Below, piece after piece: positions 58,812-64,000 of a DNA stretch of 64,000 bases (the first letter of the stretch is position 1; each line of letters opens with the position of its first letter). The notes beneath the pieces were generated by a model. The model ran no database searches and had not been told where the DNA came from. It saw only the letters and a list, made by a program, of their open reading frames with translations. The stretch lies in contig JAFRJN010000011.1 of NCBI GenBank assembly GCA_017432225.1, positions 55,728 to 119,727 of the forward strand, read 5' to 3'. Position numbers and translations under genes: made by a program. The stretch is from Candidatus Saccharimonadota bacterium (lineage in GTDB: Bacteria > Patescibacteriota > Saccharimonadia > Saccharimonadales > Saccharimonadaceae).

Positions 58812-59726
58812 TTATATTACATTGGATTTGGTTATTTTTCTCTTATTTACGACCGGCTTCTTGTCAATTTTCGGCATGGCCTTTACTCTAGTTGGAGATT
58901 TTGGTGCGACTTTACGAATGGCGTTTAGATCTTTTTCAAAAGCATCTTCATCAAATTGCTTCTTGACCGGAGCCGGTTTTTTGAGCGCGTGCCCAGGGAC
59001 TTGGATAATTCGCTTCGGTTTTTCTTCTACTGGGGTTTCGTCGAGCTTGTAGACTCCGTTATCCTTTTGGTCATTGACAATACGACCGTCCTTCAAGGTT
59101 ACCACTCGCTTCCCCAAGTCATTAACGATGGTTTCGTTATGAGTAGTGACGAGTATCGTCGTGCCAAAATCATTAATTTTCTTGAGCAAATCGATAATTT
59201 CGCTAGTGGTAAGCTTGTCAAGCTGGCCAGTCGGCTCATCGGCAATCAGAATCTTTGGCTGCCTCGCAACGCTTCTTGCAATACCGACTCTTTGCCTTTG
59301 CCCACCAGATAGCTGGTCGGGGAACTTTTTTGCTTGAGGCAACAAATCTACTAGCTCCAAAACTTTCGGCACGGTCGAGCGGATTTCGCGGCCGCTCATA
59401 CCCATGATTTCGAGTGCAAAAGCGACGTTCTCATAGACCGTCCGCCTAGGCAAAAGCTTAAAATCTTGGAATACTACGCCGAGCCTCCTTCTATAGCTCG
59501 GGATATGGCGTTTTTTTACATAGTCTAGGTCAATCCCACCAATTACAATTTTACCAGAGTCAGGAATTTCTTCCTTGGTTAGCATTTTGATAAGGGTGGA
59601 CTTACCCGCGCCAGATTTACCGACTAGAAATACAAATTCATTCGGCTCAATATGTAGAGACACATTATCAAGTGCCGGTTTAGCATCACCGGGGTACTGT
59701 TTTGTCACCGAATCGAGCAAAATCAT
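58812..59726 (-). CDS. ftsE: Cell-division ATP-binding protein FtsE with a C-terminal extension
   Basis: A 304-aa ABC ATPase: Walker A GKSGAGKST, signature LSGGQRQRVGIARS, Walker B ILIADEPTGQLD, switch TTHNE. The core ends near residue 220; about 85 more residues follow, rich in Lys and Pro (KPAPVKKQ, KKPVVNKRKITK), likely flexible and cytosolic. Such tails occur in some CPR and Firmicutes FtsE. It energises FtsX-controlled peptidoglycan cleavage at division. Confidence 0.95.
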   Translation of the reverse strand: MILLDSVTKQYPGDAKPALDNVSLHIEPNEFVFLVGKSGAGKSTLIKMLTKEEIPDSGKIVIGGIDLDYVKKRHIPSYRRRLGVVFQDFKLLPRRTVYENVAFALEIMGMSGREIRSTVPKVLELVDLLPQAKKFPDQLSGGQRQRVGIARSVARQPKILIADEPTGQLDKLTTSEIIDLLKKINDFGTTILVTTHNETIVNDLGKRVVTLKDGRIVNDQKDNGVYKLDETPVEEKPKRIIQVPGHALKKPAPVKKQFDEDAFEKDLNAIRKVAPKSPTRVKAMPKIDKKPVVNKRKITKSNVI

Positions 59727-59769
59727 ACTACCATTTTAGCATAATTACAATCAAATGCAAGACGCATAG

Positions 59770-59790
59770 TCCTGCATTTCGACTAAAAAT
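59770..59790 (+). repeat. 21-bp repeat, copy C
   Basis: The 21 bp are identical to 60371-60391 in the same orientation; the two copies flank the nuclease-like gene at 59853-60269. It encodes LHFD-stop of the CHAP C-terminus in one frame. Confidence 0.8.
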
Positions 59791-59831
59791 GGAGAGCTTG
59801 GCCTAGCTCAAATAGAACTAGGTCGCTCTCC
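59785..59831 (-). terminator. Intrinsic terminator of the nuclease-like gene
   Basis: A GGAGAGC...GCTCTCC stem with an inner CCTAG/CTAGG pairing, followed on the minus strand by ATTTTT, which is part of the 21-bp repeat. Confidence 0.8.
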
Positions 59832-59852
59832 AATATCTTTATTATACCATGC

Positions 59853-60269
59853 TTATTTAAAAATATCTAGTATAGAATTATTGTTTTCTATAATCATAAT
59901 ACGTTTCATTCCTTTTGATGTTTTAAATATCTGCAAGATATATTTTTCTAACTTCTCTACATCGCCATCGGTCTTTCTTAAATCAAAAATCGCTCTACCT
60001 CCAGACTGCTTCCTGGCCTTGTGAAATCTATTTTGAATTGTATTTTTATTCACCTTCCTCGGGCCTTTTATCTCCCATGTAGTACCCAACATCAATAAAT
60101 CTGGATTTTTACTTTTTGGGATACTGGAAGGTATTATCGTTTCAACGTCAAACCCAAATTCAGACAAGCAAAATAGCGTAGCTTCTTCATGTGGCTTCAA
60201 ATCATGATTTAGCAGTATCACTTTTCCATATTTAGTTTTTGGGACTCTTTTCAAAAAAGATATTTTCAT
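59853..60269 (-). CDS. CdiA C-terminal-like (PD-(D/E)XK-type) nuclease domain protein
   Basis: A 138-aa free-standing protein. The pattern HEEATLFCLSEFGFDVETI, NPDLLMLGTTWEIKGPRKV, KNTIQNRFHKARKQSGGRAIFDLR matches the tRNA-nuclease-like CdiA_C fold, where Glu, Asp and the E-x-K pair form the active site. Such domains occur as contact-dependent toxins and inside phage head proteins. No immunity gene is visible beside it. It has its own terminator and is flanked by 21-bp direct repeats, so it may be a small mobile cassette. Assignment is by motif reading only. Confidence 0.55.
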   Translation of the reverse strand: MKISFLKRVPKTKYGKVILLNHDLKPHEEATLFCLSEFGFDVETIIPSSIPKSKNPDLLMLGTTWEIKGPRKVNKNTIQNRFHKARKQSGGRAIFDLRKTDGDVEKLEKYILQIFKTSKGMKRIMIIENNNSILDIFK

Positions 60270-60358
60270 AATAGCACAAAATCCTATATATTATTAAATA
60301 GTATTCTTGCTATACGAACTGGATATATTATACCATTTTTATTTAAGTTTTTCTATAT

Positions 60359-60389
60359 CTAATACCTGGTTCCTGCATTTCGACTAAAA
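60359..60389 (+). repeat. 31-bp repeat, copy B (orphan CHAP gene 3' end)
   Basis: An exact inverted copy of 56614-56644. It encodes NTWFLHFD-stop on the plus strand with no CHAP gene upstream, so it is either a gene remnant or an attachment-type repeat. Copy B lies just before the template-repeat promoter. Confidence 0.85.
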
Positions 60390-60432
60390 ATTACTTGACA
60401 AATATGCCGCTAAAGCCTATAAAAATAATGCT

Positions 60433-60443
60433 TATGCTATAAT
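60433..60443 (+). promoter_or_regulatory. Promoter of the DGR template RNA
   Basis: TTATGCTATAAT is an extended -10 like those of tRNA genes in this window; a start near 60450 is expected. A TTGACA at 60395-60400 is too far away (37 nt) to be its -35. Confidence 0.6.
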
Positions 60444-60449
60444 ATATAC

Positions 60450-60733
60450 AGGGTGTATTCACTCCGACCTAGGGCCATAGCGGTGGCGAGTGTCTAGCAC
60501 CGACTAGCGTCTTCGTCATGCCAGCATATACCGACAGGCCGCATTTTAACAAGAGGTGGAGGTCCGGAATACGCTTCATGAATGGAGCCAAAATGGCTAG
60601 CTTCGACTAGTCGCTATAGTCTGTTGGATCCCAAGGAATCCAAGACTCGTAAGTTATTCCTCGTCCTAGAGATTTGATACTAGGGCGGACTTCTCTGTCA
60701 GTACTCATTCCTCCGTTGTCCTGCAAAACGCTT
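60450..60733 (+). ncRNA. Leader of the DGR template RNA, possibly structured
   Basis: About 284 nt between the promoter and the template repeat, without a convincing gene. Several self-complementary stretches occur (TTGGAT/ATCCAA, AGCC/GGCT, CGACTAGTCG). It ends directly in the template repeat, so promoter, leader and template probably form one RNA. RNase P, tmRNA and SRP RNA hallmarks were looked for and not seen. Confidence 0.5.
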
Positions 60734-60964
60734 GCTGCCTTTAGCCCAGTCGCTGGGGGCAACTACAATGGCGGTACGCTTAACAATACCGGGAATGGGA
60801 ACTGGTGGTCAGGTAACACGAATGGGGGTACTAATAGGTGGAACTTGAAATACAATAGTTCCTACCTATATACAGAATACAATAGTAGGGTCAACGGCTT
60901 TTACGTACGCTGTGTGCGGTCGTAGGTCGCCCCGGGTACTCTAGGAGTACTCACCTCTCCTCAG
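60734..60964 (+). repeat. DGR template repeat (TR)
   Basis: A 231-bp near-copy of the 3' end of the target gene. It is rich in AAC and AAT codons: ten Asn codons, one Lys and one Glu codon differ from the variable repeat. Of 19 differences to VR, 18 are at TR adenines. The last 40 bp or so are identical in both (IMH region) and contain a GTACTC-TAG-GAGTAC hairpin (60936-60950). It lies on the strand opposite to the RT and meets the RT stop codon. Confidence 0.95.
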
Positions 60965-62166
60965 CACTCCACCTCGCCAAGTTTCTCAAAGTTTTTCCAA
61001 TACTCTCTTGGCAGACCCACGCTCTCGCAAATTTCACAAAGGCATTTATAATGTTTCATGTGTTTCAAATATCCTACATAAGACACTAAAGACACTTCGT
61101 TATGTGCACCATGTGCATATTTATAAAAAGCTTTTCTGGCGTTAGCCTTCAATCTTTTACCCGGATGTATTACGTTAGCATATACCACTGCCCCAAGAAA
61201 CGGAACGCCATTTTTTGCTGGCTGCACCGAAAATTTCTTCGGATGTAGTCTCAGGCCAATTCTCCGCAAAAACCGCCGGATATTTTCCACGTCCGCAAGT
61301 ACCTTTGGCAGCTCTTCTTTTGTCACTACAATATAAAAATCATCTACATATCGCCCATAATGTTTATATCCTAGCACAAACTTTATATAACGGTCCAGCA
61401 TATCCAGAAAGATATTCGACAAAAGTTGCGAAGTTAAATTTCCAATCACAATCCCTATCCCAGGTAGTTGCTTAAATAACGATTTAGTGTCTGGCATCTT
61501 TTTCCAATTTTCCGGCCAACCCTTACGCCGCACACCTTTCACTGGGTCATCCATCACCACTTGACACAAACAAAATTTCACAATGTGATACGTTAGCCCT
61601 TTATGACCCTCAAATTGTAAATCTAGCCCCCAAAGCGCCTGTTTATAAAGTTTTCTCCGATCAAGGCTCATAAAAAATCCTTGTATATCCATCTTAACCA
61701 CATACACCTGTTTGCCAGTAGCCGATACTGACCGAATATGATGCTGTAGCCTTTTTATTCCCAGCTCCGTGCCCTTCCCCTCCCTGCAGGAATAAGAGTC
61801 ATAGATAAAATGCCGATCCCACCAGTCGTAAATTATCATATAAATAAAATGATGCACTACCCTATCTCGAAATGCCGCCGCAAAAATTTCCCTAAGGACT
61901 GGATTAAATATTACGTGTGCCGTCCCTCTTAAAGGCCGGTATTCTTTAAACATAATCGCCTTCATCAAAAGTAACAAATTCTCAAATTCATTTACTTCAA
62001 ACTTATGTTCATCAAAAGTCTTTCTTTTGCCACCTTTTCTCGCCTCAAGATAAGCCGTATAAAGATAAAAATACACCCTATTTTCTGGGTCCCTCAACCA
62101 GTCCAAATCTTCATTTGCCACCAGTTTCACTTTTCTTCGCCTCACCACTGTCTTCAATTGCACCAC
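60961..62166 (-). CDS. DGR-type reverse transcriptase
   Basis: A reverse transcriptase of up to 401 aa. Motifs: catalytic Asp in VKMDIQGFFMSLD (D160), IGNLTSQ (241-247), the DGR hallmark in place of the retroviral motif 4, YVDD (273-276), LHPKK (308-311) and GVPFLGAVV (320-328). DGR RTs copy the template RNA with errors at adenines. The first GTG gives a 56-nt overlap with the accessory gene; GTG 62130 is an alternative start with 20-nt overlap. Its 3' end overlaps TR by 4 nt, convergent. Confidence 0.93.
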   Translation of the reverse strand: MVQLKTVVRRRKVKLVANEDLDWLRDPENRVYFYLYTAYLEARKGGKRKTFDEHKFEVNEFENLLLLMKAIMFKEYRPLRGTAHVIFNPVLREIFAAAFRDRVVHHFIYMIIYDWWDRHFIYDSYSCREGKGTELGIKRLQHHIRSVSATGKQVYVVKMDIQGFFMSLDRRKLYKQALWGLDLQFEGHKGLTYHIVKFCLCQVVMDDPVKGVRRKGWPENWKKMPDTKSLFKQLPGIGIVIGNLTSQLLSNIFLDMLDRYIKFVLGYKHYGRYVDDFYIVVTKEELPKVLADVENIRRFLRRIGLRLHPKKFSVQPAKNGVPFLGAVVYANVIHPGKRLKANARKAFYKYAHGAHNEVSLVSYVGYLKHMKHYKCLCEICESVGLPREYWKNFEKLGEVEC

Positions 62167-63064
62167 TTTTATTATCCCCGCTTGGTGCCCGATAATTCAC
62201 CATTTTACCCACTACCAGATTTCTTAACCCCGCAGCGATTTTGCCCATTCTAGCCATGCTCGATATTTCTAAAAGTTGTAAATCCATTATCATAGACATC
62301 CTATCCATCAGAATATCTATATTCACGACCATCTTTTCCCCCGCTTCTCTCACGTCCATGTCGCCATGCGCCATCAAAGCATAAGTATCCGTAATCGCAA
62401 AAACCGGGCCCAAAATCTTATCTTGCAATATTTCCCGATCAGTCCTCGCGATTTTTAGTAGTTTATGATATACAGTAGTCCTTAAATCCATCGTCTGTTT
62501 GTGTATGTCTGGGAACACTACATTAGTATATAGAATCTTATTAACTTCCTTTACTTCATCGCGGTGCATGGCAATCAAGCCTTTGATGTCGTCTTTCGAA
62601 TATTTCCTTTTTAGTTTGAAATACACAATCAAATCATCATTGTCTCGCGGTACCCGCTCAATACCTACTTGTTTTAATTTTTCAGTGAGAAGTGCCAGGT
62701 CTGCGACCGACACCATTCCGCGTTTGAACTTATAGTACCCATTGTCAAGATCCGGTTTTATTATTACATTATTTCGTCCGATCATTGGCCCAATATCGTA
62801 AGCATAAATAAGCGCAGAATTACCACCCATGTTATAAAACTTTTTCTCTTTATTTGGGTTATTGCCATCCGAAGCCAGAAACAACACCAAATATTCTTCG
62901 TTTCTATCCTCCGCTTCAAATACTATTTTCTTACGTTCATAGTATTCTGCATAGTCGCGCTGCTTCTCGGCTGCAGTCCGACCTCTGCCGTGGTGGTTAA
63001 TTTTTCCTTCAGCCAAAACTTCGCGAATTTGTTTCTTGTTTAATGGTTGTGCTTCTGTTGACAT
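62111..63064 (-). CDS. DGR accessory protein: N-terminal module plus Avd-like helical domain
   Basis: A 317-aa protein. Residues about 185-292 are helical (HKQTMDLRTTVYHKLLKIAR, ILMDRMSMIMDLQLL, MGKIAAGLRNLVVGKMV) and resemble the four-helix Avd proteins that bind DGR RTs. Residues 1-180 form a second module; KKFYNMGGNSALIYAYDIG and LTEKLKQVGIERVPRDNDD weakly recall the mismatch-recognition domain I of MutS (inference). The tail is charged. Typical Avd proteins are about 125 aa, so this one is much longer. It overlaps the RT gene and follows the target gene. Confidence 0.7.
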   Translation of the reverse strand: MSTEAQPLNKKQIREVLAEGKINHHGRGRTAAEKQRDYAEYYERKKIVFEAEDRNEEYLVLFLASDGNNPNKEKKFYNMGGNSALIYAYDIGPMIGRNNVIIKPDLDNGYYKFKRGMVSVADLALLTEKLKQVGIERVPRDNDDLIVYFKLKRKYSKDDIKGLIAMHRDEVKEVNKILYTNVVFPDIHKQTMDLRTTVYHKLLKIARTDREILQDKILGPVFAITDTYALMAHGDMDVREAGEKMVVNIDILMDRMSMIMDLQLLEISSMARMGKIAAGLRNLVVGKMVNYRAPSGDNKSGAIEDSGEAKKSETGGK

Positions 63065-63096
63065 TATATTATCTGCTTATTGCTATATTCTCTGGA

Positions 63097-63121
63097 GCCG
63101 CCCTCCCGCAGGTCGGGCGGC
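63097..63121. other. GC-rich hairpin downstream of the variable repeat
   Basis: A GCCGCCC/GGGCGGC 7-bp stem with an 11-nt loop lies 19 bp beyond the 3' end of VR (minus-strand sense). Hairpins just downstream of VR are known to promote retargeting in characterised DGRs. It may also act as a transcription attenuator before the accessory gene; no T-run follows. Confidence 0.55.
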
Positions 63122-63139
63122 ATTTTCTCCGGTGGAGGT

Positions 63140-63370
63140 CTGAGGAGAGGTGAGTACTCCTAGAGTACCCGGGGCGACCTACGACCGCACACAGCGTACG
63201 TAAAAGCCGAGGACCCTACTACCGTAGTCTGTATATAGGTAGGAACTATTGTAGAACAAGTCCCACCTATTAGTACCCCCAGACGTGTTACCTGACCACC
63301 AGTACCCAGACCCGGTAGTGCTAAGCGTACCGCCAGTGTAGTGGCCCACAGCGACTGGGCTAAAGGCAGC
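63140..63370 (-). repeat. DGR variable repeat (VR)
   Basis: The 231-bp counterpart of TR at the 3' end of the target gene, including its last 63 codons and 39 bp past the stop. Twelve residues are changed by adenine mutagenesis (to H, T, S, T, S, Y, S, D, F, D, G, L in order), plus one Gly-to-Val change at a non-adenine position. The inverted repeat GTACTC/GAGTAC (63154-63168) sits in the shared IMH region. Confidence 0.95.
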
Positions 63371-64000
63371 TTTGTTGCTTGCTGCTGCCGCAATTTGAGA
63401 GTGACTTGGCATAGTCCAGCCACTCGGACAAATGGAGTAGGAGCCGTAGTCTGTACTAGACGCTGCTGCAATCGTACCCGCCGAGGCTGCCGCATAGTTG
63501 TACCAGGCGCCTGTCGTAGCCGAACATTCCATTCTTGGTTGAGTGTAGCTATTACAGCCGCTTGTACTGGAAGAGCTACAAGTAGTGTCGCTTGTATACT
63601 GTGTGCTACTTTTATCTAGATTGTAGGCCGAGCCAGTAGACCAGGTGGTAGTGACGTTAGAATTAGAGTTATCCAGCGAACGTGTGGTTCTTGTGCTACC
63701 GTAAGTAGTCCCAGAGCCAGAGCAGCCAATAGCAAGGTTTCTCGTCATCCAGAGTGTTCTCGCCGCACCGCCGTTATTAGCAGTTACAATGCCCACGGTA
63801 TAGACTTGACCGTCTCGGCTGTCTTTGAGGCTACCGGTAGCATTATCACAGAAGTAGTTGATGTTGGTAGTAAAGTCTTGCATATTGGTCGTAGCACTAC
63901 CGATGGTCTTGATGCAGCTGGTTACAGTGATCACTGCATTAGATGAACTGGAGTTCGGGGTGAAGTAAGTCGTGTTGCTAGACGAGGATGCTAGGGCGCC
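63179..64000 (-). CDS. DGR target protein, Fib_succ_major / C-type-lectin-like (5' end beyond window)
   Basis: At least 273 codons; the frame stays open to the window edge, so the start is outside and the GTG at 63934 is not the real start. The visible part matches the Fibrobacter-major-paralogous type domain: LKDSRDGQVYTV, LWMTRNLAIG, WYNYAAAS, ICPSGWTMPS, WWSGNT and the ending FYVRCVRS. This C-lectin-like fold is a classic DGR ligand-binding scaffold. The upstream part is Ser/Thr/Asn-rich, as expected of a surface protein. Variable residues cluster in the last 60. Probably an adhesin for host or prey. Confidence 0.9.
   Translation of the reverse strand, partial: GALASSSSNTTYFTPNSSSSNAVITVTSCIKTIGSATTNMQDFTTNINYFCDNATGSLKDSRDGQVYTVGIVTANNGGAARTLWMTRNLAIGCSGSGTTYGSTRTTRSLDNSNSNVTTTWSTGSAYNLDKSSTQYTSDTTCSSSSTSGCNSYTQPRMECSATTGAWYNYAAASAGTIAAASSTDYGSYSICPSGWTMPSHSQIAAAASNKAAFSPVAVGHYTGGTLSTTGSGYWWSGNTSGGTNRWDLFYNSSYLYTDYGSRVLGFYVRCVRS

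Follow-up and report, generated by a model that had tools for sequence, protein, structure and literature searches.

How does the complementary DNA (cDNA) made by a diversity-generating retroelement (DGR) find its target? Passages of a 2026 paper call this step 'incompletely understood' and 'mysterious' (PMC12875486; papers given by PMC number are cited here from excerpts). The question is raised by a DGR in a 64,000-nucleotide stretch of DNA from a Candidatus Saccharimonadota bacterium, hereafter the window, which is the terminal part of contig C5 (JAFRJN010000011.1) in a source genome of 0.62 Mb, 18 contigs and 92% completeness. The template repeat (TR) of this DGR is inverted relative to the reverse transcriptase (RT) gene, and in the leader upstream of TR lies a short slot whose reverse complement is the 3' end of the variable repeat (VR). 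The slot was absent from the first-pass annotation of this DNA and is the most interesting part of the locus. On balance, we think it likely that the slot serves both as a primer strand and as a guide pairing with the target, which would give a one-way flow from TR to VR. The features behind this reading were read directly in the sequences: an adenine-biased repeat pair, inversion of TR in 86 loci, TATAAT boxes, the slot itself, its co-variation with VR, and its preference for VR inside the repeat end.

A DGR with an inverted template repeat

An ungapped comparison of TR and VR, both 231 nucleotides (nt) long, gave 19 mismatches, 18 of them at TR adenines, which make up 59 of the 231 positions (hypergeometric P=3.6e-11); the program alignment agrees with the differences first counted by eye. 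Thirteen codons change inside the repeat rather than the twelve originally reported: twelve carry an altered adenine, ten of these being AAC or AAT as stated, and the thirteenth is GGG>GTG. The similarity extends to 60973 in TR and 63131 in VR, through the mismatches C60965>A and A60966>C and then a common CTCCACC. The mismatched ends at 60965-60966 are those expected of the initiation of mutagenic homing (IMH) element of VR and its TR counterpart, IMH*, and a 7-bp inverted repeat follows VR, as expected of a DGR; across loci, perfect stems of at least 7 bp (loop up to 10) followed VR in 26 of 85 and TR in 13 of 85. The RT carries both IGNLTSQ, whose SQ motif we take to be typical of DGRs, and YVDD, as first annotated, and with its Pfam RVT_1 match it appears to have an intact active site. 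There is good support for the locus being a DGR whose differences are adenine-specific, and mutagenic retrohoming is its predicted activity. A 6-bp hairpin, GTACTC-TAG-GAGTAC (60936-60950), stands after the stop codon and is kept in both repeats.

On the minus strand the order is target gene (cut at the contig end), accessory gene and RT. TR comes next but on the plus strand, in the opposite orientation to RT and VR; its 3' end and that of the RT gene overlap. In the BPP-1-type cassette, TR lies upstream of RT in the same direction with a spacer between them, whereas here it lies downstream on the opposite strand. The DGR had been called complete; TR, VR, RT and an accessory protein are present, but the word is too strong because contig C5 ends within the target open reading frame (ORF). 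VR does form the C-terminus of that ORF, placing the variable residues where the first-pass annotation had put them.

The genome also yielded the further VR copies whose search had been suggested. A second DGR on contig C8 has the same layout (VR L010:158-400 (+), accessory ORF, RT, TR L010:2562-2804 (-)) and 22 TR/VR mismatches, 20 of them at A. VR-like genes lie at the ends of contigs C9 (C9:349-530) and C11 (C11:19104-19291); a comparison of the two over 185 positions shows 26 mismatches, 23 of which are adenines in TR1 (A = 52/185), and 29 departures from TR1 are common to both, which would imply a third template outside the assembly. All four target-like genes found (C5, C8, C9 and C11) are cut at contig ends, as though DGR targets were points at which assemblies break.

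Among the best 80 of 572 RT relatives in species genomes, the nearest were titled Saccharibacteria. An adenine-biased repeat pair was present in 60 of the 80: 20 were inverted and downstream of RT, 39 co-directional and one odd (L049). The 25 Saccharibacteria-titled loci divided into 18 inverted, 2 co-directional and 5 without a pair; the remaining two inverted loci were titled Clostridia and Peregrinibacteria (L074). The latter, from another group of the candidate phyla radiation (CPR), carries VR roughly 2.5 kb away on the same strand as TR, and its slot is unclear. Within the family of the source genome, RT was found at E <= 1e-40 in 106 of 394 genomes. Among 100 RT loci fetched, 18 lacked a pair. 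In the other 82, TR was inverted and downstream of RT in 78 and arranged otherwise in 4 (L145, L179, L185 and L199, left out). VR lay on the RT strand in 64 of the 78 and on the TR strand in 14. Fourteen of the 78 repeat first-set contigs (13 identical leaders, plus L138, which by its length is the contig of L020), and the distinct inverted loci number 86, counting two from the source genome. The inverted arrangement is a feature of this clade. The leader of L128 (genome G299, listed in the same genus) is identical to that of L017, titled Candidatus Saccharibacteria; with the titles of the nearest RT relatives, this supports a saccharibacterial origin of the window.

Inverted DGRs were previously known as rare cases (PMC3521204, PMC6642488). 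Those of Shewanella, Vibrio and Photobacterium (DiGReF group 4, PMC3521204) likewise have RT and TR on opposite strands, but in these three cases TR, VR and target are all on the other strand, whereas in Saccharibacteria it is mostly TR alone (the 64 of 78 above); the excerpts of that paper describe no guide for the group. DGR clade 2, restricted to Patescibacteria (Roux et al. 2021, PMC8144416), resembles the DGR of the window in that both come from CPR cells, and no slot is described in the excerpts of that report.

A slot in the leader co-varies with the VR end

In the inverted loci the slot is 8-15 nt long. Within the first set of 21 loci it measured 15 nt in L010 and L034, 13 in L036, 12 in L037 and 11 in L017, L028 and L032, and was unclear in about a third. 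L049 (odd pair) and L020 (no leader) were dropped, as was, from the held-out test onward, L023, a near-duplicate of L022; L074, being from another phylum, was left out of the orphan/co-directional, motif and slot-placement analyses. The held-out set comprised 63 loci, the 78 inverted family loci minus 14 with first-set-like leaders and one with a short leader; removal of 12 cluster duplicates gave a non-redundant set of 52, in which L161 was kept and from which it was dropped in the later model and slot-placement tests.

The longest complementary match averaged 8.4 nt to the VR end in the 63 held-out loci, compared with 8.0 to the TR end and 6.7 in control leaders, and in 25 of the 63 no more than 5% of control leaders equalled the VR match. 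With a tighter window, the 52 non-redundant loci averaged 8.23 nt to VR against 5.96 for permuted leaders (z=15.9), and 17 of them had at least 10 nt where 0.2 were expected. The slot could also be placed without VR by a motif that follows it, which relocated the slot end in 41 of 49 loci by leave-one-out, a placement not wholly independent because the motif matrix was trained on slot ends. Motif-placed slots matched VR over at least 7 nt in 45 of 70 loci (2.3 expected, leave-one-out). Where one genome holds sibling DGRs, 52 ordered pairs could be compared: the slot fitted its own VR better than that of the sibling in 33, worse in 6 and equally in 13.

These results bear on the view that the DGR is an ordinary one and that the slot matches reflect chance or a side effect of short repeats close to TR and to VR. 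Individual 7-8 nt matches are indeed reached by chance, as the control mean illustrates, and a same-sense control averaged 10.2 nt, though 6.9 without five loci that carry a repeat copy (42-50 nt) in the leader window. The held-out z score, the fixed position of the match at the repeat boundary, the preference for own over sibling VR and the persistence of the signal in motif-placed slots all speak against this explanation, which we hold to be most improbable.

The slot follows VR inside the repeat end

To allow for the sequence common to TR and VR, the core was picked solely on columns where the two agree, and the adjoining column was read where they differ. On the side facing the repeat body, the slot agreed at this adjoining column with VR in 14 loci and with TR in 1 (5:0 in the first set of 20 loci, 9:1 in the held-out 52); permuted leaders gave 0.3:0.1 and 0.4:0.4, respectively, at the same column. 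Across 70 loci, a VR-type left side fitted better than a TR-type one in 29, worse in 5 and equally in 36 (P=3.9e-5). In the window, the slot is VR-type at 60965-60966, passes through the core and is then TR-type at the two following positions. The slot follows the rule of a VR-type segment inside the repeat end, a shared core, and a VR- or TR-type flank beyond. The core lies past the last adenine difference and may escape copying, yet it has stayed identical in the two repeats, which could be explained if both pair with one slot.

The same composite appeared in the 39 co-directional, mostly Bacteroidales, DGRs. In the region 50-200 nt upstream of TR, a VR-left/TR-right model was the best of four (z=9.7), ahead of TR/TR (z=8.1), VR/VR (z=3.8) and TR-left/VR-right (z=1.4). 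Simple complementarity there was weak, at 60-130 nt upstream for VR (z=3.7) and TR (z=5.0) and at 130-200 nt for TR (z=4.2), and on the spacer side of these 39 loci none was found (VR z=-0.6 within 140 nt).

A corresponding segment in BPP-1

In BPP-1, spacer positions 48-56, AGGTGGTCA, are complementary at every base to the VR end TGACCACCT; TR departs at three of those nine places and has no match of at least 6 nt in the spacer. Position 56 is, we presume, the adenine that primes cDNA synthesis. Excerpts of the 2026 paper state that an internal spacer adenine primes cDNA within IMH* (PMC12875486). A 21-bp IMH element with five VR/TR mismatches sets the direction of transfer in BPP-1 (PMC3240598), and three of these five fall inside the segment complementary to the spacer. 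Among 67 BPP-1 relatives on viral contigs, 54 had a repeat pair near RT (33 non-redundant by spacer). Near-duplicates included, GTGGTCA occurred in the spacer of 49 of the 54, and TGACCAC in the VR end of 46 (44 of those 49) and in no TR end; the TR departures were varied.

The DGR of the window resembles BPP-1 in its adenine-specific change from TR to VR, its RT and predicted Avd, its IMH/IMH* ends and the inverted repeat after VR (PMC3240598, PMC12875486), and both have a segment complementary to the end of VR, which in BPP-1 does not match TR. They differ in that TR, spacer and RT of BPP-1 are co-directional with the segment 3' of TR, whereas here it lies 5' of an inverted TR, and in that the BPP-1 guide is nearly invariant whereas the Saccharibacteria slot varies by locus together with VR.

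Weighing the guide against other readings

Several observations weigh against a target-pairing guide. In the window itself the slot matches VR over 10 nt and TR, in a shifted register, over 9. The TR end is matched far above chance, at 7.40 nt against 5.97 in the 52 held-out loci (z=10.5) and over at least 7 nt in 33 of 70 motif-placed slots (2.0 expected). By plain match length VR was the longer in 38 of 70 loci and the shorter in 16, and among the 63 held-out loci the counts were 29 and 22; TR fitted better in L206, L207, L214 and L225. Reading outwards from the core gave 16 for VR and 11 for TR (7:1 in the first set, 9:10 held out). No slot of at least 8 nt was found in 35 of 84 loci, and in these 35 the motif-placed slot matched TR (5.63, 4.05 expected) slightly better than VR (5.37, 4.10 expected). 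Although first-set-like leaders were removed, the held-out loci are still related to those of the first set. No matching repeat end was present downstream of the orphan VRs on C9 and C11. The leader alone folds no more stably than its shuffles (z=-0.5), and RNAalifold, on a gappy alignment, found no conserved structure in the post-slot region. In BPP-1 a second 9-nt complement of VR lies in avd, about 200 nt upstream, and a permutation test in the BPP-1-like phages gave no co-variation signal (z=1.2); the test is uninformative because the phage guide is nearly invariant, and it is the Saccharibacteria that supply co-variation.

Since the slot matches TR more often than chance allows, part of the signal is explained by a helix formed in cis, and the main rival reading is that the slot does nothing else: it would present a primer by binding the TR 3' end, and its resemblance to VR would be left over from the common origin of the two repeats. 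The TR matches just described, the slight lead of TR in loci without a long slot, and the excess of TR/TR over VR/VR in the co-directional DGRs all favour it, and the cryo-EM structure of BPP-1 reportedly contains an RNA duplex at the start site. Against cis pairing alone stand a slot that follows VR inside the repeat end, a complement present in 46 BPP-1-like VRs and no TR, and the lead of the VR-left/TR-right model in co-directional loci, and we judge this rival rather unlikely.

A leader acting as an antisense regulator, tuning target expression by binding the target mRNA at its 3' end, would fit a slot whose complement is found in the coding strand, and therefore in the mRNA as well, and which has its own predicted promoter. 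The match is, however, located at the TR/VR boundary and is VR-type against TR there, and the same element in BPP-1 sets the direction of DNA transfer (PMC3240598); such regulation seems quite improbable.

Proposed mechanism

We return to the slot as primer strand and guide. By analogy with BPP-1, the slot would first form a cis helix with TR at its mismatched end and act as the primer strand, and cDNA would extend from the 3' end of the slot across TR, with errors at A. The joined RNA-cDNA strand would then anneal in trans to the coding strand of VR, where pairing between slot and VR would select the target. As the slot would fit VR fully and the TR copy partly, one-way transfer from TR to VR would result. 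Where a genome holds several DGRs, each slot may be a private address. Compared with BPP-1, the address would have been shifted across TR, from its 3' flank to its 5' flank.

More tentatively, and at chances just short of even, DGRs in general may be RNA-guided: in all three groups examined, and perhaps in all DGRs, a segment of the template RNA would prime on TR and then base-pair with VR at its 3' end, while selection would keep TR from matching it fully, and the Saccharibacteria slot would be a locus-specific, freely varying and naturally reprogrammable address, private to each DGR. A guide readable in sequence makes target choice testable through simple base changes. If correct, it would explain the difference between IMH and IMH* in BPP-1, would let an ultrasmall genome run two or more DGRs with little cross-talk, and suggests a way of predicting DGR targets genome-wide.

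The bridge RNA of IS110 and the EBS/IBS pairing of group II introns are cases in which RNA picks a DNA target by base pairing. The slot is likened to them by its proposed function alone, and here it would double as the primer strand; we know of no target nuclease for it. We found no such guide described in the DGR literature covered, which included excerpts of PMC4372165, PMC8867640 and PMC10053308, and as subscription papers lay mostly outside that scope a prior description is possible.

The predicted template-RNA leader

TATAAT-like boxes stood 61-100 nt before the slot, and an exact TATAAT box lay 55-100 nt 5' of it, a narrow distance, in 28 of 48 loci (1.8 expected); the 117 nt found in the window exceed the survey range. 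A consensus promoter scan did not list this -10 box and gave no fitting -35 partner. The TATAAT boxes are the predicted promoter of the template RNA, and the leader would be transcribed together with TR. A stem of at least 6 bp followed the slot in 32 of 49 loci, where shuffles predict 11.7. The predicted fold of the whole template RNA (z=-1.7 against shuffles) contains the cis pairing of 60553-60561 with the TR 3' flank. A search of 59700-64000 with Rfam 15 returned a single match at chance level (E=2.3), outside the leader. In L030 a second, TR-like tandem copy lies within about 300 nt upstream of TR, which looks like either a shared leader or a duplicated template.

Features of the locus

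Coordinates of the features are collected in Table 1. The predicted Avd-type accessory protein had no significant family match in Pfam, NCBIfam or PHROGs, and its best match among profiles of the Protein Data Bank (PDB) was not convincing (E=0.017). Its C-terminal half was modelled with good confidence and was assigned the Avd fold by fold comparison alone, a comparison that hardly covered the N-terminal domain; any likeness of that domain to MutS is conjecture. For the target, a FISUMP domain match fell below the cut-off; many homologs carry PF09603/PF07603 and, judged from these, the target is of the FISUMP/DUF1566 kind. A fold search with the target model gave nothing significant (best E=0.96, a non-lectin; C-type lectins from E=5.2), and a lectin-like fold is suggested by the family matches of the homologs. 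If the proposed mechanism holds, the target is predicted to be a lectin-like protein of the cell surface that changes rapidly, and it may, as the first-pass annotation proposed, act as a receptor for attachment to host or partner cells.

Table 1. Features of the DGR locus, in window coordinates.
Feature	Position	Strand	Evidence
Template repeat, TR	60734-60964	+	Ungapped TR/VR comparison
Variable repeat, VR	63140-63370	-	Ungapped TR/VR comparison
Reverse transcriptase, 401 aa, GTG start as listed	60961-62166	-	RVT_1 E=1.1e-13; IGNLTSQ, YVDD
Accessory protein, 317 aa: N-terminal alpha/beta domain and C-terminal four-helix bundle, predicted Avd fold	62111-63064	-	
Target gene, 5' end absent (contig end), VR as its C-terminus	63179-64000	-	ORF; homologs PF09603/PF07603
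IMH*-like TR end: two mismatches to VR, shared CTCCACC, TR-specific TC	60965-60975	+	
VR 3' end, IMH-like, GACCTCCACC, complementary to slot	63131-63140	-	
Inverted repeat 3' of VR, 7 bp, GCCGCCC...GGGCGGC, loop 11	63097-63121	-	Read by eye
-10 box TATAAT (TGCTATAAT) of predicted template-RNA promoter, 117 nt 5' of slot	60438-60443	+	
Predicted template-RNA 5' leader	60450-60733	+	Start inferred from -10 box
Putative guide slot GGTGGAGGTC, perfect complement of VR 3' end	60555-60564	+	10 nt to VR, 9 nt (shifted) to TR
Slot part able to pair in cis with TR 3' flank CTCCACCTC (60967-60975)	60553-60561	+	Fold; match comparison
Post-slot motif (consensus about AARGAAYNCMCYT) and hairpin GCTTC..GGAGC	60565-60588	+	Survey motif, stem counts

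Just outside the leader, a 138-aa ORF at 59853-60269 (-) matches a CdiA C-terminal domain (PF18451, E=7.9e-18), and a perfect 21-nt direct repeat (59770-59790 and 60371-60391) flanks it.

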